From contig NZ_JAZHRX010000001.1 of assembly GCF_036924645.1 (NCBI RefSeq), positions 2,294,001 to 2,358,000 on the forward strand: a stretch of 64,000 bases of DNA, written 5' to 3'. Below are positions 712 to 11,921 of the stretch, one piece after another. This DNA comes from Bradyrhizobium sp. AZCC 2176. GTDB lineage: Bacteria; Pseudomonadota; Alphaproteobacteria; Rhizobiales; Xanthobacteraceae. A program made the translations under genes and the position numbers. How positions within the stretch are numbered: position 1 is the stretch's first letter; every line of letters begins with the position of its first letter. The notes under the pieces are model-generated. The model had not been told where the DNA came from, made no database searches, and saw only the letters and a program-made list of their open reading frames with translations.

Positions 712-1956
712 CTACACTACGTACCTTGGCAATTTCTCGATCTCGCGAAGGGCAACAAGGGGCCATGTTTCGCCGTAGCGATCGCTGACCTTTGCGCCCG
801 CATGGCCCTGCAGAATATTTCGTACATCCTCGGGTATCGATAGAACACGAGCGAGCGATGAAAATCGATGCCGCCAGCCATGGTTCGGCGCCACACGCTC
901 GTCGATCCCCAGTGAACGCACCCATTCAGCGAGCCGTTCGCCCACCTTCTTGTAGTGAGGGTTCGCATGGCTGCCGCCACGGCTGCGGCGCGGATCATAA
1001 AACAGAGGCCGCGCTCCCCTCGACTTCGCGAACTTAAGCAAGCCTTGATCAACCAAGTGGCTATATAGCGGCACTTCGCGGAACTTCCGCGTCTTGTTGG
1101 TTTCGGCTCGTATGCGCAGCATTGGGATGCCGTCCCGCTGCAGAAAATCACGTCCAGTGAGGGGCGTAATTTCGTTCACCCTCGCCCCCGTGTAGGCGCA
1201 GATCCACGGGACCCACCGACGCGCGGCAGCCATCTCGACGCTGATCTTATCGGAGGGCGGCCGCAGCGTCGCGGCCAGGATTATCCTTGCTTCTTCGCCA
1301 CTGAAGCCTTTGTCTCGTTCGTGCAGAGTGTCCTTGACGCGCACGCGAATGCCAGCGGCTGGATTTTCGCTCAGCATATCTTGGTCGACTGCGAATTGCA
1401 GGGTCGCCTTTATGGCCGCGAGATAGACATCTCGAATGGTAACGTTTGACATGTCTTCGACTAGAAGAGCGTTCTTCCATGCGACGATATCGGCTCGCGA
1501 GATGCTCGTCGCCTCATCGTGGCCGAGATGAGTAATCAAGCGTTCCACGACAGGCGTCCAGCGCTTCACGGTAGCGGGAGCAAGCTGAGCTTCGGCGGCG
1601 TAGGACTTGAATATTGAGCGGACCGACAATCCTGCCTTCGACGCGACCGGCTCTGCCGACGAGATCAAGGATGAAGATGTGATGTCGACGATTGGTTCAA
1701 CAGCGAGGGCTTGTACCGGGATGGGCGTGCACACCGTTGCTGTATCGATGAGTGGATTAGTAAGCCGGACCCAATCACGCTCGATCTGTAACGCAGCTTC
1801 GAGATACCGAATGCGTGCAATGCCAAGGTCTCGCGTCCTCAACGAGTGTTTGATCTCGCTCTTTCCAACCACTTCCCTCAACCGATCGGGAACACGTTTC
1901 CTGAACCAGAAAATTCCGCTTTCAGGGTGCCGTTTCGGGGTGCCTAATGAGGTCAT
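712..1956 (-). CDS. Site-specific tyrosine recombinase with DUF6538-like N-terminus
   Basis: This encodes a phage-type integrase of about 414 residues. The N-terminus (SGIFWFRKRVPDRLREVVGK, then KHSLRTRD) has the DUF6538 pattern common in rhizobial island integrases. A core-binding region follows, then the catalytic domain: an Arg in AYTGARVNEI, the HxxR box in NHGWRHRF, a His in LQGHAG and the nucleophile Tyr in SDRYGE. All catalytic positions are present, so it may be active. I chose the ATG at 1956 (MTSLGTPKRH) because the 17 residues upstream, possible from 2007, do not look like protein. The gene start is 86 bp from an att-like copy of the tRNA-Ser end and points away from the second integrase, so the two recombinases are divergent. 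Its own element probably extends left beyond the window. Confidence 0.88.
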   Translation of the reverse strand: MTSLGTPKRHPESGIFWFRKRVPDRLREVVGKSEIKHSLRTRDLGIARIRYLEAALQIERDWVRLTNPLIDTATVCTPIPVQALAVEPIVDITSSSLISSAEPVASKAGLSVRSIFKSYAAEAQLAPATVKRWTPVVERLITHLGHDEATSISRADIVAWKNALLVEDMSNVTIRDVYLAAIKATLQFAVDQDMLSENPAAGIRVRVKDTLHERDKGFSGEEARIILAATLRPPSDKISVEMAAARRWVPWICAYTGARVNEITPLTGRDFLQRDGIPMLRIRAETNKTRKFREVPLYSHLVDQGLLKFAKSRGARPLFYDPRRSRGGSHANPHYKKVGERLAEWVRSLGIDERVAPNHGWRHRFSSLARVLSIPEDVRNILQGHAGAKVSDRYGETWPLVALREIEKLPRYVV

Positions 1957-2041
1957 GTGTACCATCGTTGTGTACCAACGGTGGTCCGGAAAACCCTTTG
2001 ATTTCAAAAGGCCCGCTATTTTCTAGGCTGTTTTCGACAGG

Positions 2042-2056
2042 GTGGCGGAGAGGGAG
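2042..2056. repeat. attL: 15-bp copy of the tRNA-Ser 3' end
   Basis: GTGGCGGAGAGGGAG is identical to bases 11831-11845, where 14 of the 15 bases form the CCA end and acceptor strand of tRNA-Ser(CGA). The match ends at 2057 (A versus G). This is the usual mark of integration into a tRNA 3' end and defines the left border of the island. Confidence 0.85.
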
Positions 2057-2185
2057 ACCGCCGAACTACTCACCGCCGTCGTTCGCAGCCGTTCGTTTGC
2101 AATTGAAATTATGCCGATAGTATAGGGTTTTCCTTCATTCTCGTTTTTCATCGTTCGTTGCCGCCCGTCCCAAGCCATGTTAATT

Positions 2186-2209
2186 TTGGGGACTGACTTG
2201 GGGACTGAC
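2186..2209 (+). repeat. Tandem 12-bp repeats, likely integrase arm sites (left)
   Basis: Two exact tandem copies of TTGGGGACTGAC end one base before the integrase ATG. A matching pair of GATTTGGGG(T/A)C(T/C) units lies inside the right border at 11753-11776. Direct repeats flanking both att cores are typical of arm-type binding sites of tyrosine recombinases. Their overlap with the integrase leader could also give autoregulation. Confidence 0.65.
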
Positions 2210-2210
2210 G

Positions 2211-3395
2211 ATGGCAGGTAATCTGACGGCTCGGAAGGTGCAAACGGCAACGCCGGGCAAATACAGCGACGGCGGCAATTTGTATTTGATCGTCTCCCCG
2301 AATGGGTCCCGCAAATGGGTCCTCCGCTTCACATGGCGGGGGAGAGCAAGGGAAATGGGATTGGGAAGCGCTGCTGCGGTGCCCCTCGCCGACGCCCGTG
2401 AGAAAGCCGCCAGCGCGCGCCGGAAGATCGCCCGAGGCCTGAACCCCATCGATGAGCGGAAACGCACCAATGGCGTCCCCACGTTCGGCGAAATGGCTGA
2501 TCAGGTGCGCGAAGCGCTGTCCGTCGGTTTCCGGAACGAGAAACACAAGGCTCAGTGGAAATCGACGCTGACCACCGACGCCGCGACGTTGCGAGACAAG
2601 CCGGTGGACACCATCACCACCGATGACGTGTTGGCGGTTCTGAAACCTATCTGGACGACCAAGCCCGAAACCGCTTCGCGGCTGCGGGGCCGGATTGAAA
2701 AGGTGCTGGACGCTGCCAAGGCCAAAGGGTTCCGAGACGGCGAGAACCCCGCGCGGTGGCGCGGCCACCTGGACCACCTGCTGCCACGGCCATCGAAGCT
2801 TGCTCGCGGACACCACGCCGCGATGCCCTACGACGAACTGGCGGCGTTTGTAGCGGACCTTCGGGGGCGCGAGGCTCTCGCCGCGTTGGCACTGGAACTG
2901 TGCATCCTCACAGCCGCTCGATCCGGTGAAATCCTTGGCATGCGCTGGGATGAAATCGATCTGGACAAGAAAATCTGGACCGTGCCCGCGCATCGAATGA
3001 AGGCGGGGCGCGAGCACCGGATACCGTTGTCTCAACGCGCCACCGACATTCTTGTTAGACTTAGCGAGGGCCGTTCGGGCGAATTCGTTTTTCCGGGCCA
3101 GCGCCGCGACAAACCGCTGTCGAACATGGCGATGGAAATGATGCTGCGGCGCATGAAAATCGAGAACGCCACCGTGCACGGTTTCCGATCCAGTTTCCGC
3201 GATTGGGCTGGCAACGAAACCAGCTATCCGCGCGAATTGATCGAAACCGCCTTGGCGCACGTCATCGGCGACAAGGCCGAACAGGCTTACCGCCGCAGCG
3301 ATGCGCTGGAAAAACGCCGCAATCTAATGGAGGCATGGGCGGACTACTGCGAACCCAAGCGGACGACAAACGTTGTGAGGATGCGGCAGGCGTAG
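2211..3395 (+). CDS. P4-type tyrosine integrase (DUF4102 N-terminal domain)
   Basis: This 394-residue protein should catalyse integration and excision of the island. The N-terminal arm-binding domain has the P4 pattern (TPGKYSDGGNLYLIV, then RKWVLRF, with a PLADAREKA helix). The catalytic domain shows R237 (TAARSGEILG), H323 and R326 (HGFR), H350 (ALAHV) and Y360 (QAYRRSD), so the active site is complete. The start ATG follows directly on the two 12-bp repeats. It reads into the island, 155 bp from the left att copy, which fits a self-encoded integrase. The length is normal for the family. Confidence 0.95.
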   Translation: MAGNLTARKVQTATPGKYSDGGNLYLIVSPNGSRKWVLRFTWRGRAREMGLGSAAAVPLADAREKAASARRKIARGLNPIDERKRTNGVPTFGEMADQVREALSVGFRNEKHKAQWKSTLTTDAATLRDKPVDTITTDDVLAVLKPIWTTKPETASRLRGRIEKVLDAAKAKGFRDGENPARWRGHLDHLLPRPSKLARGHHAAMPYDELAAFVADLRGREALAALALELCILTAARSGEILGMRWDEIDLDKKIWTVPAHRMKAGREHRIPLSQRATDILVRLSEGRSGEFVFPGQRRDKPLSNMAMEMMLRRMKIENATVHGFRSSFRDWAGNETSYPRELIETALAHVIGDKAEQAYRRSDALEKRRNLMEAWADYCEPKRTTNVVRMRQA

Positions 3396-3411
3396 CTGTA
3401 TCCCGCGCCGC

Positions 3412-3424
3412 CCTTGCACCAAGG
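3412..3424. repeat. 13-bp near-palindrome shared by both recombinase 3' ends (copy 2)
   Basis: This is the second exact copy of CCTTGCACCAAGG, 17 bases after the integrase stop codon and just before the next gene. See the copy at 667-679. Confidence 0.5.
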
Positions 3425-3432
3425 GGCCGGCG

Positions 3433-4110
3433 ATGCCACAGCGCAAACGCAGATTGCCGATTTCATCCAGCGGTCAACCTGCGCCAAAATTCGAGCCGAA
3501 TGCAGTGTTCTGGGGACGATGTGAAACCGCATACGGCCGAGCCATTTCACGTGAAATACGCGAAGAGGTAGTCACGGCTACGAACAATTTCCTCTGGATC
3601 GCCAGCATGGAGGCGGAGGCAGAGGACCTCAATGCGGCCGTCGAGCGCATCGGCCGATACAGGAAGGCAGCAGGCGCTCTGTTGAATGAACAGGGCGAAC
3701 CGGGATCAACCGCCTCCATTTTTTACGCCGAGTATCTAATTCAAAGCGAATTTCCCGACACAACGCTCGACCAACTCCATGATCTACTGATGTCATACCA
3801 TGGAGCGTGCGCAAGAGCACAAGGGCGAGCCGCTTCTGAAAACGAGCCGGAATTCCGGCAAGGCGCGTCATGGGACACTTGGATCAGGAATATCACGGCG
3901 ATTTGCAAGCGACACCAGTTGCCAATCGGTTCCCGCAAGGACGACGACAAAATGCGCCAGCACTCCCCGTTCGTGCGCCTAGTCTATGAACTTCAAAGCG
4001 GGTTCGACCACAGGTACCTCCGCGGAGCGCATTCCCGTACAGCCGTAGCAAAGGCAATCGGAGACGCGCGAAGGTCGGGACGGAAAACGGCCGCAAGCGC
4101 CCCGCAATAA
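3433..4110 (+). CDS. Island-borne hypothetical protein, 225 aa
   Basis: I do not recognise a characterised family. The predicted protein is mostly helical and hydrophilic, with a basic start (PQRKRRLP) and a basic end (RRSGRKTAAS), and no signal peptide or membrane segment. A central stretch (SIFYAEYLIQSEFPDTTLDQ) and a WDTWIRNI motif near residue 147 may be useful for homology searches. It lies 37 bp after the integrase gene and before the AlpA-like regulator, on the same strand. That is the place where integrative elements often carry control or packaging-interference genes. A helical DNA-associated role is only a guess. The start at 3433 has no strong ribosome-binding site. Confidence 0.7.
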   Translation: MPQRKRRLPISSSGQPAPKFEPNAVFWGRCETAYGRAISREIREEVVTATNNFLWIASMEAEAEDLNAAVERIGRYRKAAGALLNEQGEPGSTASIFYAEYLIQSEFPDTTLDQLHDLLMSYHGACARAQGRAASENEPEFRQGASWDTWIRNITAICKRHQLPIGSRKDDDKMRQHSPFVRLVYELQSGFDHRYLRGAHSRTAVAKAIGDARRSGRKTAASAPQ

Positions 4111-4186
4111 GTCCCGCATCTGTTGCGATTGATCGGCTACGACCTTCATGACCCGCCCGGTTCGGGCATAACGATGAAGGCGTCCC

Positions 4187-4381
4187 ATGAACACCCACGT
4201 TTCAATTGAACCGGAGGCCCTGTCCGTTCCGCAGGCGTGCGCCCTCGCCGGTATCGGACGAACAAAGTTGTACGAAGCAATAACCGCCGGCAGCTTGAAA
4301 GCGCGCAAATTGGGGAAGCGGACCCTGATACTTCGGGATGACCTGCGCCAGTTTCTCGCGGCACTTCCGACCGCGGCTTAA
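4187..4381 (+). CDS. AlpA/excisionase-like helix-turn-helix protein
   Basis: This 64-residue protein is a single MerR-like winged helix of the excisionase/AlpA type. The segment SVPQACALAGIGRTKLYEAI is the helix-turn-helix, followed by GSLKARKLGKRTLILRDDL, the usual wing with a basic tip, and a short FLAALP helix. Proteins of this size and order in P4-like elements act as recombination directionality factors or as activators of the integrase gene. It lies between the integrase and the replication-like gene, as in many satellites. An AAGGCG sequence seven bases upstream could be its ribosome-binding site. Confidence 0.8.
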   Translation: MNTHVSIEPEALSVPQACALAGIGRTKLYEAITAGSLKARKLGKRTLILRDDLRQFLAALPTAA

Positions 4382-4453
4382 TCAATTCACAAAAGTTGCC
4401 CGGCCGTATCGACGACACCGGGCATGGCCTCACCGCTAGTCCGCAGGCGCAAA

Positions 4454-5227
4454 ATGTACCGTTGGTTTCGCCTTTACAACGACGCGATCAACGATCCGAA
4501 ACTGTTACGGCTTTCGGACCACTTGCATCGATTGTGGATCGGGCTTTTGTGCATCGCCTCCAAGAATGAAGGCGCGCTTCGCTCGATAGAGGACATGGCC
4601 ATCATGCTGCGCACGACACCGGCCGTGTTGGAGCGCGACATCAGCAGGCTAATAGCCGCACGGCTCATTGATAATCATGAAGGCAGGCTTACACCGCACA
4701 ATTGGGAAAAGTGGCAGCCCAAATCGGACGGCATCGATCCTACCGCGTCCGCGCGTATGCGGCGTTACAGGGAGCGTCAGCGTAACGACCGTAACGCCAC
4801 CGTAACGGTGATACGACCAGACACAGACACAGACACAGACACAGATACAGACACAGAAATAAATTCCGTGGCTATCGCCACGGACGCTTCGGCGTCGATT
4901 GATCCATCGGCTGCCGAGCGCGAATTGTTTGCAAGGGGAAGGGAAATTCTCGGCAAGAGCGCAGGCGGCCTGATTGCCAACCTGCTGAAAGCTAAGGGCC
5001 ACAACATAGCGTTGGCGCGCGCGGCACTAGAAACGGCTTCGCAAAAGGAAAACCCGGCCGAGTACGTTGCGGCCGCGTCTCGCGGTCCGCCTACTGCTAA
5101 GCCGCTCACTGAACATCAACGCAAGCAGCGCGAAGCAGTGGAGTTAGTCAATGTTCTCAAACAGAAATCAAGCGACAGCGGCAGCGGCGACGATATTGGG
5201 CTGCTACGACACGATCACGGCGAGTGA
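4454..5227 (+). CDS. Replication-initiator-like protein with winged-helix N-terminus and Asp-Thr repeat linker
   Basis: The N-terminus (MYRWFRLYNDAINDPKLLRL, a WIGLLCIAS helix, then AIMLRTTPAVLERDISRLI) has the pattern of phage replisome-organiser winged-helix domains, ending in NWEKWQPKSD and a basic MRRYRERQR helix. A low-complexity Asp-Thr linker follows, then a helical C-terminal domain (GGLIANLLKAKGHNIALARA). This two-domain layout is typical of phage and satellite origin-binding proteins. I chose the ATG at 4454 because homologous starts, as I recall them, begin MYRW; an in-frame ATG at 4424 would add ten residues. The next gene starts inside the 3' end, so translation is probably coupled. 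The assignment rests on pattern, not on a database match. Confidence 0.7.
   Translation: MYRWFRLYNDAINDPKLLRLSDHLHRLWIGLLCIASKNEGALRSIEDMAIMLRTTPAVLERDISRLIAARLIDNHEGRLTPHNWEKWQPKSDGIDPTASARMRRYRERQRNDRNATVTVIRPDTDTDTDTDTDTEINSVAIATDASASIDPSAAERELFARGREILGKSAGGLIANLLKAKGHNIALARAALETASQKENPAEYVAAASRGPPTAKPLTEHQRKQREAVELVNVLKQKSSDSGSGDDIGLLRHDHGE
4819..4856 (+). repeat. ACAGAC hexamer microsatellite coding for (Asp-Thr)n
   Basis: About six tandem ACAGAC-type hexamers, one with a T substitution, encode the alternating Asp-Thr linker of the replication-like protein. Hexamer units keep the frame, so slippage would change linker length without breaking the protein. Confidence 0.9.
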
Positions 5228-5528
5228 TCCGAAGGTGTTCGTGGCGGCACTCGTCGAAATGTTGGCAATGTACCCGTCCGCCGTCATAGCCCGAGCCGCC
5301 GATCCGGTGCGCGGCCTACCTGCCCTCGTCAAATTTCCGAACCTGGCCAGCTTCCGCGAGCAACTCGAACGAATGCTCGACGAGCATGACCGAGACGTGC
5401 GGAGGGAACGGCATCGACAAGAGCGCGAAAAACAGAACCAATTATCGGCACGGCCGCAACTCAATGATCGAGCCAAGGCACGAGTTGTTGAGGGGTTTCA
5501 GAAATTGAAGGCAAGGCTAGGCGGGTAA
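5151..5528 (+). CDS. Small protein co-translated with the replication-like gene
   Basis: This 125-residue protein starts 77 bp inside the 3' end of the replication-like gene, in another frame, with a GGAG ribosome-binding site ten bases upstream. The first half is helical and fairly hydrophobic (FVAALVEMLAMYPSAVIARA). The second half is a strongly charged probable coiled coil (about residues 65-105, DEHDRDVRRERHRQEREKQ). The overlap and position suggest a partner of the replication protein, such as a helicase-loader-like or accessory factor, but no motif proves it. Homologues in phage regions often have the PxxVIARAADPxxGLP motif seen near residues 43-58. Confidence 0.65.
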   Translation: MFSNRNQATAAAATILGCYDTITASDPKVFVAALVEMLAMYPSAVIARAADPVRGLPALVKFPNLASFREQLERMLDEHDRDVRRERHRQEREKQNQLSARPQLNDRAKARVVEGFQKLKARLGG

Positions 5529-5626
5529 TTGGCAAGGTAGATGCCCCAATGCCCGCCTCCCCGGGGGGAGGGAAAAACGAACACATAAAAGCATGCTTAT
5601 TGGAAATGGGGCCGTCAACACGGCGG

Positions 5627-5652
5627 CATTCGGGGTTGGTTTGCCCCGAATG
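5627..5652. terminator. Perfect 9-bp hairpin between convergent genes
   Basis: CATTCGGGG (5627-5635) pairs perfectly with CCCCGAATG (5644-5652) around an 8-base loop. It lies between the ends of the convergent small replication-module gene and the HNH gene. There is no T-run on either strand, so a terminator role is uncertain; it could also be a processing or origin structure. Confidence 0.4.
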
Positions 5653-5662
5653 GCGCATCGCG

Positions 5663-6619
5663 CTAACACTTCAAGCGCGCGCGAAATGCGATGAGGTCGC
5701 TCGGGTCGTCCGTACGGTGGATCATACGGTGACAGTTCGCGCAAAGAACCGCAAAATCCTTGGCGACATCGTACTGGACCGCAACACCCTCGGCTAAGGT
5801 GCTGATCGGCGTGAGATGGTGGGCCTCTATAAAACCTTCTCCGATGTCACCATAGCGAGCGGAAAACTCCAAACTGCATGCTTGGCAGACCGTGCCATGA
5901 TGCTTTTTCGCCGCCTTTGCCGCCGTGCCATTTCTTTCAATCTTCTTGTGCAGAACGTACTTTCTCTTTTCGGTTATAGTTGCGTTGTCGGGCACGTTGA
6001 AGTCGGAGACCTCCGTATCCGCATCGCCATCTGCATCCAAACCACCTCGAAATGTCAGCGCTCGATAGGCGCGGATCAGTAATTGCAGATCGTCTCGCAG
6101 CGTCGCTTCGCTCGGCAACTCGGTAAGGCTGTATCTGAAACCCAAACTATGACCCGCGGCGTAGTCGCCGGGAAGGCGAGCATCCGATCCTGTCTCAATT
6201 TGGATTAGTGGGGCTGCCGAGACGAATTCTGGCAGGCGTTTCCTTATGAAATGAGCGCGGTCGCTTAGAACATCACGCGTTTTCGAACCGAATTCCTGTC
6301 GGGTAGATGTCGTACCTTGGTTTAGCGAAAGGAAGGCGACTGGCTCCGTCGCGTGAAATAAGTAAACCGCATAATAGCCGCGTACAGCACTCGTGGTGAC
6401 GACTGGATCAAAAACAGCAATCCATGGAATAGCTGCCCAGTTTCCTTGTCCCGGACTGCCTTGAATATGAAGGCCTCCGCCCCGATCGCCGAGACCATCG
6501 GCAATTGCTTGTTCGGCATCAGTCCTTATGAAGCGCGCCAACGGATGGGCTTCTAACGGTTGTTTCCGGGCCTCGGGAAATTCGCTGATGATGCGATGCA
6601 GAGTTTCTCGTAAGGGCAT
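5663..6619 (-). CDS. McrB-type DNA-recognition domain fused to HNH endonuclease
   Basis: This protein of about 318 residues has two parts. Residues 1-180 match the MrcB/DUF3578 pattern (LARFIRTDAEQAI, GSPGQGNWAAIPWIAVFDP, GYYAVYLFH, SLNQGTT), the domain that reads modified cytosine in McrB-like enzymes. The C-terminal part is an HNH nuclease with two Cys pairs (CQAC and CANC), the catalytic EAHHLTPIS and a final HRMIH. The fusion predicts a modification-dependent (type IV-like) restriction nuclease without the McrB GTPase. It is encoded against the replication module, as expected for island cargo. I chose the ATG at 6619, which has a weak AAGAAAG upstream; 6649 would add ten residues. Confidence 0.88.
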   Translation of the reverse strand: MPLRETLHRIISEFPEARKQPLEAHPLARFIRTDAEQAIADGLGDRGGGLHIQGSPGQGNWAAIPWIAVFDPVVTTSAVRGYYAVYLFHATEPVAFLSLNQGTTSTRQEFGSKTRDVLSDRAHFIRKRLPEFVSAAPLIQIETGSDARLPGDYAAGHSLGFRYSLTELPSEATLRDDLQLLIRAYRALTFRGGLDADGDADTEVSDFNVPDNATITEKRKYVLHKKIERNGTAAKAAKKHHGTVCQACSLEFSARYGDIGEGFIEAHHLTPISTLAEGVAVQYDVAKDFAVLCANCHRMIHRTDDPSDLIAFRARLKC

Positions 6620-6751
6620 TGTAGGCTTTCTTGATCCCAAAACGGGCATACTTACGGATTTCGCCGAACGATCCGAGTTGTGTAGTAGGCATTTCTCAAT
6701 CTATTGTTGGCCGAATACTGTCAATGGATTTTCGAGCCCCGGGTGGTTCTG

Positions 6752-6985
6752 ATGTCTGATACGCGAAAACAGCCGATCAGTTACGTCACTTGGGCAATTT
6801 TGGCATTCCTAGCTTTTGGAATTTATCAGGTGTTTTTTGTCGGGTCGCCTGCGAACAAGAAGTTTTTGGATGATTGCCACGCTCGCGGTACCGCTCACCT
6901 CACGAGTAATTCGCCAGACGAGGAATACCGGCGCGTAATTGTCGATTGTCAGAGCAAACTGCGCGAGTTCAAGCGGTCAAATTAG
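6752..6985 (+). CDS. Small single-pass membrane protein, 77 aa
   Basis: The protein starts MSDTRKQPISYV, then has one hydrophobic helix (WAILAFLAFGIYQVFFV, about residues 13-30) and a hydrophilic tail with two Cys (DDCHARG and VDCQSK). I do not recognise a family. It is divergent from the McrB/HNH gene, with about 130 bp between the starts, and convergent with the membrane protein gene that follows. An ATG at 6704 in the same frame would add 16 residues that look unlike protein. The base composition is clearly lower in GC than the core genome, like its neighbours. Confidence 0.55.
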   Translation: MSDTRKQPISYVTWAILAFLAFGIYQVFFVGSPANKKFLDDCHARGTAHLTSNSPDEEYRRVIVDCQSKLREFKRSN

Positions 6986-7045
6986 GCCGTGTCGAACTCG
7001 GCGAGCGAGTTGTGCTTGGAAGAGGCACGCCACCTTTGAGCCGGA

Positions 7046-7777
7046 TCACTCCTTAGCATCCTTTGGAGCCGCTGCCGGTCCCGGCGGGATGACGGCTGGA
7101 GGTGTCGCGATGGGAGCTGGCGTAATGGGAGCCATTTGAGGAAGAGCCGGTACAGTGACAGTCGCTTTATCGACGCTTTGGTTTTTCTTTGTCGGCGTCG
7201 GCGCGTCTTTTTTGTCGAAGGTAATGCCCCCAAAGACCGCGACAAGAATTGAAATTCCGAATAGAGCAAAAATCATAGACTTGTAGAATATTTCAAGCTT
7301 GCCGTCCGAATGGAGCTGACCCTTTTCGCGAAATTTGTCGTGGCTAACAAAACATTTCGCAGCGAGCCACAACAGGCCTTTTGGAACAAAAAAACTTTCT
7401 TTCCCGATTTCATCGGACAACGACAGTTCTGGAATTGTGACCTTATACTTTTTTTCGATCTGAATTGCATGGTTCACCGCCCCCTTGAGCAACCGGTGAA
7501 ACCAGTACCTGTCCATGAGATAGAAAAGCAACGTGCCAAACACGCCAAATATCGGAACCAAAACGGCAAATTGAATATCTATACGCCAAAGTTGCAGTGC
7601 CCATCCTTTGTCCAAGAGGAAACCGATAGACGCCAACAGTGCCAGCAAGATCGTGATGAACAGTCCGCGGATACGCATGCCGATTTCGTTAAAGTGCATT
7701 TGCACGCCAACGACGGTCTTCCAAACGTCTATTACCTGCTTTGCGCGTTCATCGCGCAGTTTTCGATTATTCTGCAT
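7046..7777 (-). CDS. Three-helix membrane protein overlapping the HAD gene
   Basis: This protein of about 243 residues has three hydrophobic segments: GLFITILLALLASIGFLLDK, FAVLVPIFGVFGTLLFYLMD and MIFALFGISILVAVFGGI. After the second is a conserved-looking stretch (RYWFHRLLKGAVNHAIQIEK). The last 50 residues are rich in Pro, Ala and Thr and probably disordered. Its ATG at 7777 lies inside the 3' end of the HAD gene (11-bp overlap), so the two are translationally coupled. A TTG at 7795 is another start. I do not know the family. A phosphatase-like enzyme coupled to a short multi-helix membrane protein on a mobile island resembles two-gene defence systems with a membrane effector; that is inference. 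Confidence 0.7.
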   Translation of the reverse strand: MQNNRKLRDERAKQVIDVWKTVVGVQMHFNEIGMRIRGLFITILLALLASIGFLLDKGWALQLWRIDIQFAVLVPIFGVFGTLLFYLMDRYWFHRLLKGAVNHAIQIEKKYKVTIPELSLSDEIGKESFFVPKGLLWLAAKCFVSHDKFREKGQLHSDGKLEIFYKSMIFALFGISILVAVFGGITFDKKDAPTPTKKNQSVDKATVTVPALPQMAPITPAPIATPPAVIPPGPAAAPKDAKE

Positions 7778-8642
7778 GGAAATCGCCGAAATCAAACAGC
7801 CCTAAGATTTCCGAGAAACTTTCTTCGAGCGTGAAGTTCGGATTAACATGCTCGCGCTCTTTGATTTTCTGTTCCCGTTCGACCTCGTCGGCCGTCCAGT
7901 GCGTAACATCCTGGAGCAGCTTATATTCGGGTCGTTTGTGTGCTTGTCCGTACTTTGCCCACACAGCATCGACCCCGCAATCGACCGCCATCGCGACATC
8001 TTTCATGAGATTGTCTCCGACGTATACGCAGTCGCTTTTTGACAGTTCCAGATCAGCCATGATCGCGTTCAAAACTGCGGCATCCGGTTTCTTTGATCCT
8101 TTAGGTGTAAATTCTTGCTTTGTGAGTTTGAGACCGTAATGGGAGGCCGGATAGTGACGCAGGTCATCGGCTGACAATCCGGCTGGTAGCCTGTGATCTT
8201 CGGGACAGAAGACGTAATCGAGTACGCCGTCTAACCCCAAGCGGCGCACGCGATAATTTGAGTAGAAGGCCATGCTCTCGGTGTAGCCGACGATGCGTGT
8301 GCCTCGCCCTTTGATCTTGAGCAAGCTTTCGGCCACGGTTGGATAGAGACGAAGGTGCTCGCGGCGCTTTGACCGGTAAATCTGAATGGATTTTGCGAAG
8401 ACCTCGGTTGCGGGACGACCTTTCAGGACCGATTGTAGCGACGGGATTTCCTCGATGAGAAACGAATATTCCGACGTACCATGTTTCTGATGGACGGCGG
8501 CGATCTCGGGAAGAAGCTTGGCCTTTTCGACACCGCTGATTTCAACAATGCTATCCAACATTGAAGAAAAGCAATTGAGCCACAACTCGACCCAATCGAA
8601 GAGGGTATTGTCCAAATCGGTTATTAGGGCAGTTTTCTTCAT
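7767..8642 (-). CDS. HAD-superfamily hydrolase
   Basis: This 291-residue protein has all HAD motifs: the nucleophile and acid Asp in LITDLDNTLFDW (D9, D11), motif II Thr in GYTES (T121), a Lys in KGSKKPD (about 184) and motif IV in VGDNLMKDV (D210). A helical cap lies between motifs I and II (about residues 20-105), as in class I phosphatases of the haloacid dehalogenase/phosphoglycolate type. The protein is longer than most such enzymes because of a charged C-terminal extension (EREQKIKEREH) of about 45 residues. The substrate cannot be told. It is the first gene of a pair with the membrane protein gene. Confidence 0.9.
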   Translation of the reverse strand: MKKTALITDLDNTLFDWVELWLNCFSSMLDSIVEISGVEKAKLLPEIAAVHQKHGTSEYSFLIEEIPSLQSVLKGRPATEVFAKSIQIYRSKRREHLRLYPTVAESLLKIKGRGTRIVGYTESMAFYSNYRVRRLGLDGVLDYVFCPEDHRLPAGLSADDLRHYPASHYGLKLTKQEFTPKGSKKPDAAVLNAIMADLELSKSDCVYVGDNLMKDVAMAVDCGVDAVWAKYGQAHKRPEYKLLQDVTHWTADEVEREQKIKEREHVNPNFTLEESFSEILGLFDFGDFHAE

Positions 8643-8784
8643 GCGAAACTTCGTCGGTGGAGCAGTGATTGTCGTTTGATCAATGATTGCATCAGACCTA
8701 CGATACTAACCGAGCGAGCGCGATCAGATCGGCAACGTATCCACCGCTTAATTCGGTGATGGTCGGGGCAAAAAATTATCATAG

Positions 8785-8931
8785 TTCCGTCTTGCAAACT
8801 GGTCGAAAGCGGAGGCGGGCGACTTACAGGCAATCAAGCAGATCGGAGACCAATTGGACGGCAAGGCCGCGCAAGCCGTCGAGCATGGCGATGTCTCGGT
8901 CACTAATTTGACCGACCCCCAAGCTTTATGA
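8785..8931 (+). pseudogene. 3' fragment of a relative of the GRPxGS small protein
   Basis: The + strand frame from 8785 to the TGA at 8929-8931 reads KAEAGDLQAIKQIGDQLDGK and then AAQAVEHGDVSV. This aligns without gaps to the C-terminal half of the small protein at 11432-11740 (KAEQGDLHAIREVADRMDGK). An in-frame stop lies at 8782-8784 and no start is present, so this is a 3' remnant. It suggests that an older island end, or a duplicated copy, lies in the middle of the element. Confidence 0.75.
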
Positions 8932-9266
8932 GATCGCGGCGGATGGATCGAGTGAAAAGTATCGAGAGCCGAAGGCCTTGCCAGCCCCGCACCGCAGTCC
9001 TGAAACCACGCCCAAACGAAAAGGACCACCGGAGCGACCGATGGTCCCCAAAGCCTACCGGCTTTGCCTTGTTATTTGCCAGTTAGCTGCGGACAGACTG
9101 GCGGCTGCCGCAGGGTTGATGCTCGCTTTACGCTGGCCGTTTGGACACTGGCCTTTGGACCGTTAGCCGTTGAAACGTCGGTCCCGTCGGACGCCTGTCA
9201 CCCTTGGCTTTGGTCTTTATCGGCGCTCGTCACTGTTGGCGCGGGATGGTGCGAGAAACCACTCGA
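8932..9266. other. Stretch without a recognisable gene
   Basis: All six frames are broken or give only unlikely short proteins, and the base composition changes within the stretch. It lies between two gene remnants and looks like decayed DNA. I see no RNA gene or clear repeat in it. Confidence 0.6.
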
Positions 9267-9506
9267 TCAACCGAACGATCCAACGCTCGACAAAAGCGCC
9301 GGTTCCAGCATGCAGAGGCAAATGAAGGGCGGGAAGGCCAAGTCTGCGTTAGCAGCCGCGAGCAAGAGGCCGATTTGGGCGATCCAAGCATTGCGTTGTA
9401 GCGGAACGAGGTCATGCGGATGATGTTCGGCTAAATGCCCTAGAACCGCCTGCACGGGTTTGGTTAGGAAATCGGCGACGGTCGAGGTGTAGTAGGCTTG
9501 CTGCAT
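9267..9506 (-). pseudogene. Possible 5' remnant of a DUF2075-type protein gene
   Basis: From the ATG at 9506 the minus strand reads MQQAYYTSTVADFLTKPVQA, then HLAEHHPHDLVPLQRNAWIA and QIGLLLA. From memory, this resembles the N-terminus of DUF2075 (DNA/RNA helicase-like) proteins (AYY-SxxxFL, then a Q-xxAW-xxxI helix). After about 50 residues the frame loses this character (CLCMLEPALLSS) and stops, so a full gene is absent. A family match is tentative. A free-standing short protein is the other possibility. Confidence 0.4.
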
Positions 9507-9668
9507 TGCGGACAATCATCCATGAGTGGACCAACGGCAATAAGGGGCCATTACCGATGCGCTCTCGTGTCTTCAAGCGCCTTGGTATTGTTATGCGCAA
9601 ACAACCTGGCCCGGTATGGCTGCGTGCGTCGGCATTTGGTAAGAAGCTTCCTCCCTGGGGGCACACTT

Positions 9669-10241
9669 TCACTGCGCCTCATCTGAGCACGCCGTTGGCC
9701 GTCTGCCGGATCGCACGCATGAGCGAAACCGCCACGGCTCGACATAGCTGCCAGCCCCCACCCCGCGTTCATTGCGCCTTGCTTCATCTTGCGCGGCAGC
9801 ATAGCCACCCTTGCTATATCGCGGCCAATCGAGCGCTAGACCATTGCGAACAAGCCAGTCCGCAAGATCAACCCCATCTACCGAACAGACTGCGACAACG
9901 CGCTTGTACTGGTCACGATCAACTTCAATGCACGCGACGGGGCGCTTGGCTATGACGTCATAGAGCGCATTTGCAGCTTGCTGGCTGCAACGGTACGGGC
10001 CGCTGTCAGCATCGCGGCAAAGCTGATTGCTTTCCGGGGCGTCGATGCCAGACAGCCGAATGCGAACACCGTCCAGGTCCAGCGTGTCGCCGTCGATGAT
10101 GCTGGCGCGGCCGGTCAAATCGGACGCTGCCGCAACGGTCGCGATCAATGCCAGCGCGAGGCCGGGCAGCCATTTTATCCGGCCGACGCCTTGGCGTTCA
10201 GTACAATGCTTCACATGTCCCACTAAAGAAATTGAAGCCAT
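9669..10241 (-). CDS. Thermonuclease-family (SNase-like) exported nuclease
   Basis: A signal-peptide-like helix (IKWLPGLALALIATVAAA, residues 22-39) precedes an SNase fold: ASIIDGDTLDLDGVRIRL, GIDAPE, a Cys-bearing loop, then DRDQYKRVVAVC, NGLALDWPRYS and AAQDEARRNERG. Catalytic equivalents (Asp in DGDT, Arg and Asp in RLSGIDAPE, Arg in YKRVVA) are visible, so an active Ca-dependent secreted or periplasmic nuclease is likely. The start overlaps the 3' end of the gene before it by 44 bp. A later in-frame GTG could give a shorter leader before the same hydrophobic helix. It is the last gene of a three-gene minus-strand set. Confidence 0.85.
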   Translation of the reverse strand: MASISLVGHVKHCTERQGVGRIKWLPGLALALIATVAAASDLTGRASIIDGDTLDLDGVRIRLSGIDAPESNQLCRDADSGPYRCSQQAANALYDVIAKRPVACIEVDRDQYKRVVAVCSVDGVDLADWLVRNGLALDWPRYSKGGYAAAQDEARRNERGVGAGSYVEPWRFRSCVRSGRRPTACSDEAQ

Positions 10242-10584
10242 TGGACATAAGCACGAACGTCACAGGCTTTTTGAAAAACCTAAGTCGAATGCTATCGGAA
10301 GGCGCTAGCAGACCCGGCATGGCAACAAAATCATTGTTAGCGCCTCCCTTTTGAACGATTTTCCAATCAGCAGCTTTTTGATCTCCAATTTTGATTGCGC
10401 CTGATCTTGTATCGACAACCAATTGGCCAACCGCGCCTAGCCAGAAATCTGATTTCTTGCTCCTCGCAAACCGACCAGCCTCTACGTCAAACACATCCAA
10501 CGTCGTGCAAACGTAGGTTTGTTCGGCCCGTGCATGTCCGCCAATCAGAATTAGTACGATGACGAGAACGAACCGAATGTTCAT
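10198..10584 (-). CDS. Exported hypothetical protein, 128 aa
   Basis: A clear signal peptide (MNIRFVLVIVLILIGGHARA) is followed by a mature part of about 108 residues with two Cys (YVCTTLD and GTCEALY). These could form a disulfide that closes a small beta-rich domain. I do not recognise the family. An upstream ATG at 10602 in the same frame directly follows the stop of the preceding gene, but the ATG at 10584 fits the signal peptide better. It is coupled both upstream (stop at 10603) and downstream (overlap with the nuclease gene), so the three exported proteins are probably made together. Confidence 0.65.
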   Translation of the reverse strand: MNIRFVLVIVLILIGGHARAEQTYVCTTLDVFDVEAGRFARSKKSDFWLGAVGQLVVDTRSGAIKIGDQKAADWKIVQKGGANNDFVAMPGLLAPSDSIRLRFFKKPVTFVLMSNGFNFFSGTCEALY

Positions 10585-10602
10585 TTGCCGGTTGCCCGCC
10601 AT

Positions 10603-11271
10603 TCACTTTGACTTATTCAGTCGATCACGTTCAGCGTCAATCAGGTCCGACGCGCATTTCATAAAGCTGGTTGCTGACTTATCAGAGCGAACTTTTGCAC
10701 CTTCCTTGTTCGTATCTTCGACGCTGAGGTCGATGGGCACTTGCATATCAGCGCCGCCTTTCCTGCGAGCGAACGCTATCGTGACAGTACCTTCCCTTAT
10801 GCTTTGGACCAGCATGGGGAACGTTTTCGCGTCATAGATTGCGATGATCGCGCCGGGTGTATCTGTTTCCCTATCTTGCTTGATTAGGAAAGGTCGGCTG
10901 GTCGCGTTGCCGGAAACAAAAAAAGCGGTGACCGGTGCATTCGGAATAATCTTGTACGACTGCGGATCGAGGTCATTCACAACTATTTTGAGCAGAATGC
11001 CTATACTATTGTTTGCGGTCATCAGATTGAACGAGCCGTCAACTCGAACGAAGTTTCCAGCTTTGTACGTGAAGTCCTTGATGAGCGATGCAAACTCCAC
11101 CCCACAGCCCGTTAGAACTCCGTCTGTGAACTTTGGCGCTGCGACGGTGTAGCCAGTTCCAAGGCGACTTGCGAGCACCTGTTCGATGACGGCGTTGTTC
11201 GGCCCGACGGGTTGCGCGATTGCAGGGGCCACCATCAGACATGCCGCCGCAATTGCGGCGATTGGTTTCAT
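10603..11271 (-). CDS. Exported hypothetical protein, 222 aa
   Basis: The signal peptide is MKPIAAIAAACLMVAPAIAQ. The mature protein has a mixed alpha/beta pattern with two Cys (LTGCGVEF and FMKCASD) and ends in a charged helix (LIDAERDRLNKSK). No catalytic motif is visible and I do not recognise the family. It is the first gene of the three-gene exported set. The region upstream (11272-11431) is AT-richer and is shared with the divergent small gene at 11432, so it probably holds both promoters. Confidence 0.65.
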   Translation of the reverse strand: MKPIAAIAAACLMVAPAIAQPVGPNNAVIEQVLASRLGTGYTVAAPKFTDGVLTGCGVEFASLIKDFTYKAGNFVRVDGSFNLMTANNSIGILLKIVVNDLDPQSYKIIPNAPVTAFFVSGNATSRPFLIKQDRETDTPGAIIAIYDAKTFPMLVQSIREGTVTIAFARRKGGADMQVPIDLSVEDTNKEGAKVRSDKSATSFMKCASDLIDAERDRLNKSK

Positions 11272-11431
11272 TGTGTTTCACAGTGTTGGGGGAATTTCAC
11301 AGCGCCATTATCATGGCACAGGTACAACCACGTTTGGCATCAGGAATAATACGGGGACCGTGGGACCCCGCACGCAACCATAGTTCCGTCACCGATTTGC
11401 TTTAAGCTTCAACGTCTAGACGGTGAAGAAC

Positions 11432-11740
11432 ATGGGCAGGCCGATCGGGTCCGTGAACAAGGAAAAGCCATTCGCAGATGCGCTCCGGATAGCGCTTCGG
11501 AGCGGCAATCCCCATCGGCTGCGAGCCATCGCTGAAAAGCTGATCGAAAAAGCAGAACAAGGCGACTTGCACGCCATCCGTGAGGTCGCGGATAGGATGG
11601 ACGGAAAAGCGGTGCAGGGTATCGAGCGCGCCGATGTCCCGGTCCAAATGTTGAGTGACGCTGAACTCCTAAGGATCGCGGCTGGTGGATTGCCAGAACC
11701 GGTCGATGATCCCGACAGGCCGTCAGGTTTGCCGCATTAG
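11432..11740 (+). CDS. GRPxGS small protein of mobile elements, 102 aa
   Basis: The protein starts MGRPIGSVNKEKPF, an AT-hook-like Gly-Arg-Pro turn, then a helical domain (ADALRIALRSGNPHRLRAIA) and the conserved-looking KAEQGDLHAIREVADRMDGK. This pattern is familiar from short proteins near phage and island ends in rhizobia, some annotated as small-terminase-like or DUF5681-like; the assignment is tentative. I chose the ATG at 11432 over one at 11423 because homologous starts read MGRP. It is the last gene before the right arm repeats. A related 3' fragment lies at 8785-8931. Confidence 0.65.
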   Translation: MGRPIGSVNKEKPFADALRIALRSGNPHRLRAIAEKLIEKAEQGDLHAIREVADRMDGKAVQGIERADVPVQMLSDAELLRIAAGGLPEPVDDPDRPSGLPH

Positions 11741-11752
11741 GCGAATTGGAGC

Positions 11753-11776
11753 GATTTGGGGTCTGATTTGGGGACC
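11753..11776 (+). repeat. Tandem 12-bp repeats, likely integrase arm sites (right)
   Basis: GATTTGGGGTCT is followed directly by GATTTGGGGACC, 54 bp inside the right att core. Both share the TTGGGG(A/T)C core and the tandem 12-bp spacing of the left pair at 2186-2209. This supports a matched set of recombinase arm sites. Confidence 0.65.
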
Positions 11777-11830
11777 AGCCTAGCTTCTCAGGCAAGAACC
11801 TTCACGAAATCAAAGACTTGGTTACATCTA

Positions 11831-11845
11831 GTGGCGGAGAGGGAG
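11831..11845. repeat. attR: 15-bp core at the tRNA-Ser 3' end
   Basis: GTGGCGGAGAGGGAG covers the CCA end and 3' acceptor strand of the tRNA-Ser gene plus one base outside. It is identical to 2042-2056 and marks the right border of the island. Confidence 0.85.
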
Positions 11846-11921
11846 GGATTCGAACCCCCGATAGGCTTGCACCTATGCCGCATTTCGAGTGCGGTGCATT
11901 CGACCACTCTGCCACCTCTCC
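11832..11921 (-). tRNA. tRNA-Ser(CGA)
   Basis: The 90-nt cloverleaf has the acceptor stem GGAGAGG/CCTCTCC, an encoded GCCA end, the long variable arm of class II tRNAs, a GGTTCGAATCC T-arm, and the anticodon loop CTCGAAA with anticodon CGA (bases 11885-11887, complement), which reads UCG. The gene is intact on the right side of the island, so integration did not destroy it. Confidence 0.97.

Follow-up and report, generated by a model that had tools for sequence, protein, structure and literature searches.

The island at tRNA-Ser(CGA)

A 9.8-kb island lies at positions 2042–11845 of a 64-kb stretch of the Bradyrhizobium sp. AZCC 2176 genome (contig NZ_JAZHRX010000001.1, positions 2,294,001 to 2,358,000). 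This whole stretch is called the window here, and unmarked coordinates refer to it. An earlier note, made from the letters alone, had described the island as a rhizobial phage satellite or a relative of one. It is interpreted here as probably a satellite-like mobile element, neither a P4 element nor a canonical phage-inducible chromosomal island (PICI), and the strongest evidence is the linkage of its small-terminase gene together with a phage-type origin. The island is bounded by exact 15-bp direct repeats, GTGGCGGAGAGGGAG, which copy the 3' end of a tRNA-Ser, as the note had observed. The left attachment (att) site, attL, occupies 2042–2056 and attR 11831–11845, both on the forward strand; attR coincides with the 3' end of tRNA-Ser(CGA) (11832–11921, reverse strand), the integration target and the only tRNA found in the window. 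No further copy of GTGGCGGAGAGGGAG was present in the window, even at two mismatches, and two or more matches at that tolerance arose in 3 of 100 shuffles. In the whole genome (7.15 Mb, one contig), there are four exact copies, the other two lying about 150 kb to the left. With a GC content of 55.4%, the island is poorer in G and C than the right flank (63.3%).

The first gene (2211–3395, forward) encodes a 394-aa tyrosine integrase with matches to Arm-DNA-bind_3 (the P4-type arm domain), Phage_int_M and Phage_integrase, which bears out its earlier assignment to the P4 type. It is followed, on the same strand, by genes for a 225-aa protein (3433–4110) and a 64-aa AlpA-like regulator or excisionase (4187–4381; HTH_17, 1.4e-11), the latter also recognized in the earlier note. 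Just 5' of the integrase gene are two tandem copies of TTGGGGACTGA (2186–2208, forward). Their counterpart near the right end is TTTGGGGTCTGATTTGGGGACCA (11755–11777, forward), with the GGGG repeat reading TTGGGGTCTGA at 11756. At one mismatch or fewer, the pattern TTGGGGWCTGA has three matches in the 64 kb, all near the island ends, where 1.09 are expected. It speaks against the satellite-like interpretation that at least three matches anywhere were reached in 14 of 100 shuffles at the same tolerance; because the pattern was also picked post hoc, the weight of these repeats lies in their position. Tandem GGGG repeats 5' of int and a similar att core occur in two further genomes, G468 and G471, and a single repeat of this kind also lies close to the tRNA end of G468. 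The repeats are probably integrase arm sites.

The 225-aa protein has a fold without known match, and its gene is often found beside an integrase gene. Relatives were found in two other genomes of the genus (of 195), ten others of the family (of 391) and four others of the order (of 397). The gene's surroundings were read in 15 of these 16 genomes (G129 was left out) and in the AZCC 2176 genome itself; a Pfam-confirmed integrase lay within 1 kb in nine of the 16 genomes read. An AlpA-like gene follows in AZCC 2176 (G000), G308 and G468, and in G200 with a match below the Pfam cut-off. There was no match in 50,697 phage records, 72,556 plasmid records or two IMG/VR scans, and no relative was confirmed in a search of the genome contig collection. 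A large protein search gave nine matches, including the query's own protein. The longest contigs of two of them, P0123 and P0124, agree in length with those of P0002 and P0006, relatives of the replication initiator described below, which suggests that each pair shares a contig. Of the structure-based searches proposed in the earlier note, the one with the AlphaFold model of this protein (all helical; predicted local distance difference test score, pLDDT, 80.3) gave no match with E ≤ 0.001 in PDB or BFVD. Judged by position only, the protein could be an excision partner, like the int-adjacent iolg that is required for excision of PICMI, the phage-inducible chromosomal minimalist islands of Vibrio (PMC10803314).

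The small-terminase gene and its relatives

The gene nearest the far att site (11432–11740, forward; open reading frame (ORF) open from a GTG at 11423) had been noticed as encoding a GRPxGS small protein. This 102-aa, DUF5681-like protein is now considered a probable small terminase. Its own match to DUF5681 in Pfam falls below cut-off, and its profile found nothing meaningful among solved structures. Among the best 80 of 155 initiator-bearing IMG/VR loci, 11 match the GRPxGS protein, and in all 11 the match lies directly upstream, on the same strand, of a large-terminase homologue. Large terminases were searched with five queries, ORFs picked by eye from L040, L045, L048, L083 and the phage record L111; a PHROG scan placed all of them in large-terminase families and three of their neighbours in portal families. 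Because the queries were taken from four of the 11 loci, seven of the linkages are independent of the query's own locus.

For a second set, IMG/VR was searched with the small terminase itself, which gave at least 483 relatives; the best 80 were taken, many of which resemble one another, so that they are not 80 independent cases. A downstream large-terminase homologue was found in 72 of the 80; two contigs end too soon, and six were without one. When a same-strand homologue was required to lie no more than 1.5 kb downstream, 71 of the 80 qualified, and the 72nd case is L210, in which the large terminase overlaps beyond the limit set. A long ORF of no identified family is directly downstream of the small terminase in L212, L263, L265 and L266, and no large-terminase homologue was matched downstream in L233 and L209. 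Only two phage records, MW202674 and MW202691, match the GRPxGS protein. The annotated large terminase is the next gene in the former and the next but one in the latter, followed by a P22-like portal gene. A DUF5681 protein has been reported among the structural proteins detected in a Salmonella phage; a role as terminase is neither proved nor excluded by this.

Within the genus, a small-terminase match (E ≤ 0.001) was found in 18 of 195 genomes, AZCC 2176 included. Fourteen places in 14 other genomes were read; these do not include three further genomes whose matches were weak, nor another site in G140. For the ten closest relatives (60–69% identical) and the weaker L203 and L204, the fetched stretches held no match to the large-terminase queries, although a large terminase of another family could escape the five queries used. 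Two other weaker loci do have a match, directly downstream in L206 and 2.5 kb downstream in L205. Of the 12 genus loci without such a match, seven combine the small terminase with a replication gene and a recombinase of the serine or tyrosine type. Six of these (L196–L201, from six genomes) have primase-type genes, then the small terminase and then a convergent serine recombinase, which is 79–100% identical to that of L201. In L204, about 5.5 kb (5821–11275 of that locus) hold an integrase, an O-like initiator, a 326-aa gene, the small terminase and a tyrosine recombinase. The closest relative among the IMG/VR matches listed, an 8.7-kb contig (L209), has an integrase-like first ORF (by eye), a primase-polymerase match, a 181-aa gene common to L196–L201, the small terminase and a serine recombinase, without a large-terminase match. 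No match to the replication queries was found in L193, L194, L195, L202 and L203. The copy in L203 has an internal stop, and that in L202 stands alone, 80 bp from the 3' end of a tRNA-Thr.

A separate similarity concerns L193: 178 bp of the window (9362–9539) are 96% identical to positions 8239–8416 of that locus, where the small-terminase genes themselves are 76% identical. In L193, too, a small-terminase gene follows about 1.7 kb downstream.

Small terminases of other families are also found with the island's other genes. The far end of an island in G468 (L306 with L326 and L327) holds int, the 225-aa gene, alpA, a primase gene and a Terminase_2 gene, and L028, from Bradyrhizobium sp. 199, has the C-terminal part of the initiator, the loader and a Terminase_4 gene (9.9e-30 and 5.9e-27 for the two terminase matches), with no large terminase seen by eye.

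The GRPxGS protein might instead be a defence factor that poisons the large terminase of an infecting phage, which would make the element a mobile defence island and not a packaged satellite. Its gene does stand at the end of defence-type cargo, and in L194 an 85% relative of the HNH gene is found at a distance of 4.1 kb from the small-terminase copy. However, eight other elements have a gene of this type after primase or other replication genes, a setting more transfer-like than cargo-like, and this role is considered highly improbable.

Replication genes and an origin-like element

The replisome-organiser-like gene of the earlier note, with its coupled small gene, corresponds to a phage-type replication initiator of up to 267 aa (4424–5227, forward; the conserved start is probably 4454) that matches PHROG 3926 (1.1e-14) and, more widely, PHROG replication-initiation and DnaD-like loader families. 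A gene for a 125-aa protein (5151–5528, forward) overlaps it, starting at 5151 before the initiator gene ends at 5227. This protein had no Pfam or PHROG match. Its family profile gave four matches among solved structures, the best of which, 1no1, was weak (E 0.031). 1no1 is the helicase loader G39P of phage SPP1, in which its gene comes after that of the initiator. The 267-aa gene encodes a phage initiator, and the 125-aa gene probably a helicase loader.

Inside the initiator gene are, in order, three CGTAACG iterons (4781–4807, forward), an array of seven 6-bp CAGACA-type units (4818–4859, forward), which is a probable unwinding or loading element, and the inverted repeat CCGTGGCTATCGCCACGG (4866–4883). 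A scan of IMG/VR with the initiator profile confirmed 155 relatives, the best 80 of which were taken as loci L031–L110. The genome contig collection yielded three initiator relatives. A CAGA array of at least four units was found at the same place in 55 of the 71 loci that have the N-terminal part of the initiator; some of these loci are near-duplicates, and the distinct arrays number 47. Elsewhere in those loci, no CAGA array occurred in 2.04 Mb of strand, and the nine loci with only the C-terminal part of the initiator had none. Tandem Repeats Finder detected some array inside the initiator gene in 67 of the 71, compared with 0.34 per 850 bp outside it. Steps of 5 and 6 bp are mixed in 25 of the 47 distinct arrays, which alters the encoded peptide; the DNA motif is therefore what is conserved. 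The iterons of L041, L056 and L081 are, by eye, nearly identical to those of the island. The iterons and CAGA array together would form the origin, and the array may be a general origin motif of this phage group. Phage lambda has a similar layout, its origin being inside gene O.

Across these loci, CAGA arrays with 5- or 6-bp steps stand beside locus-specific iterons within the initiator genes.

Another possibility is a shrunken prophage. A podovirus-like prophage would have lost the whole stretch from its large terminase up to the right att site, gained host cargo, and kept its integrase, early genes and small terminase. The order of initiator, 125-aa gene and small terminase is indeed that of phage contigs such as L048 and L040, and a broken fragment of a second small-terminase-like gene, with two stops, remains in the island (about 8800–8955, forward). 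Against this, the deletion must end 90 bp before attR and spare both att sites and open early genes. Moreover, elements with other replication genes or recombinases also have the small terminase without a large terminase, and the 225-aa gene is without a match in the phage records and both IMG/VR scans. Decay of a prophage is considered unlikely. On finding the same genes in full prophages, which the earlier note had named as evidence against a satellite, the results are divided: the initiator, loader and small terminase do occur in contigs with large terminase and portal genes, whereas the 225-aa gene was not met in the phage, plasmid or IMG/VR searches. The satellite-like reading is kept as the preferred one.

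Cargo, site history and comparison with known satellites

Between the replication genes and the small terminase lie cargo genes. A restriction-like MrcB_N-HNH protein (5663–6649, reverse; MrcB_N 1.6e-43, HNH below cut-off) is the McrB/HNH nuclease of the earlier note, and the haloacid dehalogenase (HAD)/membrane pair is likewise borne out by the PADLOC matches Hydrolase-TM for the membrane protein (7046–7795, reverse; 1.4e-24) and Hydrolase for the HAD hydrolase (7767–8642, reverse; 6.6e-88). These HNH and HAD/membrane genes may act as anti-phage cargo. A 77-aa protein with a hydrophobic segment by eye (6752–6985, forward) and a 134-aa protein (10198–10602, reverse) have no family match, and a 222-aa protein whose start looks signal-like by eye (10603–11271, reverse) has no convincing one. 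A staphylococcal-nuclease-type protein (9669–10241, reverse) was recognized in the Pfam and PHROG scans. Nucleases of this type are present in the window, L308 and L321. This nuclease, the broken GRPxGS copy, the GGGG repeats at the ends, the origin-like element and the terminase linkage are features beyond those of the earlier note.

The tRNA has been a target more than once. Among 11 tRNA flanks compared, the junction was seen in two. A sequence 90% identical to AZCC 2176 positions 2140489–2145175 joins the tRNA directly in G019, and a shorter match, to 2144721–2145107, ends 60 bp from it in G005; the other nine flanks were without it. From these two flanks it follows that about 160.7 kb (2145176–2305830) were inserted at this tRNA-Ser, and the island is the tRNA-proximal piece of that accretion. 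To its left is a segment of about 150 kb (G000:C1:2145176-2296041) with its own DUF6538-type integrase (window 712–2007), a relative of which abuts the same tRNA in G024. The simplest history would have the large segment arrive first and the island later. The idea that the segment is an integrative and conjugative element with a type IV secretion system was rejected, as the VirB4-type family PF03135 had no match in the genome, in a search confined to this one transfer family. By eye, the segment carries a Wadjet-like gene and helicase/nuclease genes.

In two of the 11 flanks (G023 and G024), this tRNA is occupied by other integrases. A further explanation is that of a self-excising genomic island or mobilisable element which acquired phage early genes and moves by transformation, generalised transduction or conjugative help. 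A 52% relative of the island integrase sits at the same tRNA in G023, where the element it serves includes a gene that looks relaxase-like by eye, and in G468 the related gene set heads a 45-kb island. However, no relaxase family was found among 13 island proteins scanned with Pfam, and PF03135 gave no match in the genome, although this family was matched in only one of 14 control genomes. Also, we know of no use of a phage origin or a small terminase in conjugation. Such an island is regarded as a decidedly unlikely explanation, and the satellite-like element remains preferred.

No large terminase, portal or capsid was recognized in the Pfam and PHROG scans of the island proteins, in agreement with the earlier remark that no capsid gene is seen; a complete temperate phage would have all three. 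The sole head or packaging match in PHROG among 12 island proteins (the 77-aa protein was left out) linked the AlpA-like protein with a small-terminase family, at chance level (E 0.06). Temperate phages in IMG/VR that have this initiator family, such as L040 and L048, share with the island an initiator and/or loader, a small terminase and mostly a CAGA-array origin, but they run on into large-terminase and portal genes, and the island does not.

With P4-type satellites, the island shares the integrase type, an AlpA relative, a tRNA site and defence cargo. P4 encodes the alpha primase, psu, sid and delta, none of which was recognized in the island proteins scanned with Pfam and PHROG. As described in PMC6092414, Gram-negative PICIs such as EcCICFT073 have, like the island, an integrase, an AlpA regulator, replication genes and phage-resistance genes, and no structural genes; some of the PICI maps there also mark terS. 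The PICIs defined there combine an integrase, a replication module and a master regulator, as the island does, and lack structural and lytic phage genes, none of which was recognized in the island proteins scanned. In contrast to PICIs, the island has no primase-type Pri-Rep but a phage initiator and loader with an intragenic origin-like element, and its 9.8 kb fall short of the 12–15 kb given there. Its att site also lies in a tRNA that other elements use; those in the two flanks noted above may or may not be prophages, by which PICI att sites are never occupied in that description. PICI-exclusive genes are a further mark, and the 225-aa gene, without a match in the phage, plasmid and IMG/VR searches, is not known from PICIs. 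Induction by a phage and packaging belong to that definition too. The Gram-negative cases treated there are from Enterobacteriaceae and Pasteurellaceae.

The PICMI of Vibrio (PMC10803314) are likewise small, with int, an accessory gene, alpA and then a replication gene. The island differs from them in lacking a DUF3987/DUF5906 primase, in using tRNA-Ser and not fis, and in having a small terminase; for PICMI115, no homologue of any packaging-redirection gene was found in that report. Assignment of the island to P4, PICI or PICMI was rejected because of its gene content. Of the earlier proposal, the satellite or satellite relative is thus strengthened by the small terminase, the phage-type origin and the defence-type cargo, and the likeness to P4 and PICI at gene level is lost: there is no primase-helicase and no recognized P4 gene, and the initiator and loader are of phage type.

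In the mechanism envisaged, the integrase and AlpA-like protein, possibly with the 225-aa protein, would excise a 9.8-kb circle between the 15-bp att sites. The initiator would bind the iterons in its own gene, the adjacent CAGA array would open or load the strand, and the 125-aa protein would recruit the host helicase, so that the element might replicate like a temperate phage. Packaging would then depend on a helper phage, whose large terminase and capsid would receive the island DNA marked by the small terminase; the HNH and HAD/membrane proteins would act against phages.

Several findings weigh against this interpretation. No near-identical island was found in other genomes. The weakest link is transfer by a helper; none was recognized in the AZCC 2176 genome, where there was no PF03354 match and none to one large-terminase protein, a probe without positive control. 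The GRPxGS protein matched no PHROG terminase family, its model is of low confidence (pLDDT 62.5), and its broken second copy indicates some decay. The initiator, loader and small terminase could be remnants, because all occur in phage contigs; the initiator relatives in G119 and G099 are placed as in prophages, no more than 7 kb from large-terminase matches. In G229, no integrase was seen with the 225-aa gene, whose neighbour is a small terminase weakly matching the Sf6 type. The att sites of G468 are 45 kb apart, at a tRNA-Ser(GCT), and its other genes look metabolic by eye, so that the gene set does not always belong to a small satellite. In both G468 and G471, the integrase match breaks off at Pfam position 136 of 172, and these relatives may therefore be decayed. 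In L028, where the ends of the element were not located, the genes that follow are membrane/OmpA-like by eye, with a staphylococcal-type nuclease.

No description of a Bradyrhizobium satellite was found in the literature searched, which was covered partially and mostly as titles and abstract beginnings; one review treats satellites only in general. Titles and abstract beginnings likewise gave no description of satellites in Rhizobiales or Alphaproteobacteria. Tentatively, and at somewhat less than even chance, Bradyrhizobium and its relatives may hold an undescribed group of satellites, in which a portable DUF5681-type small terminase is the last gene before the att site or recombinase. The group would combine interchangeable replication modules (initiator and loader with a CAGA-array origin, O-like initiator, primase-polymerase or Toprim primase) with tyrosine or serine recombinases. 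The island would be one member, with iterons nearly identical to those of phages that it may exploit. If this is true, defence genes travel among soil and symbiotic bacteria on a family of small elements that borrow phage capsids, and the small terminase and the CAGA-array origin would be simple sequence handles for finding more such elements and for testing their packaging directly.

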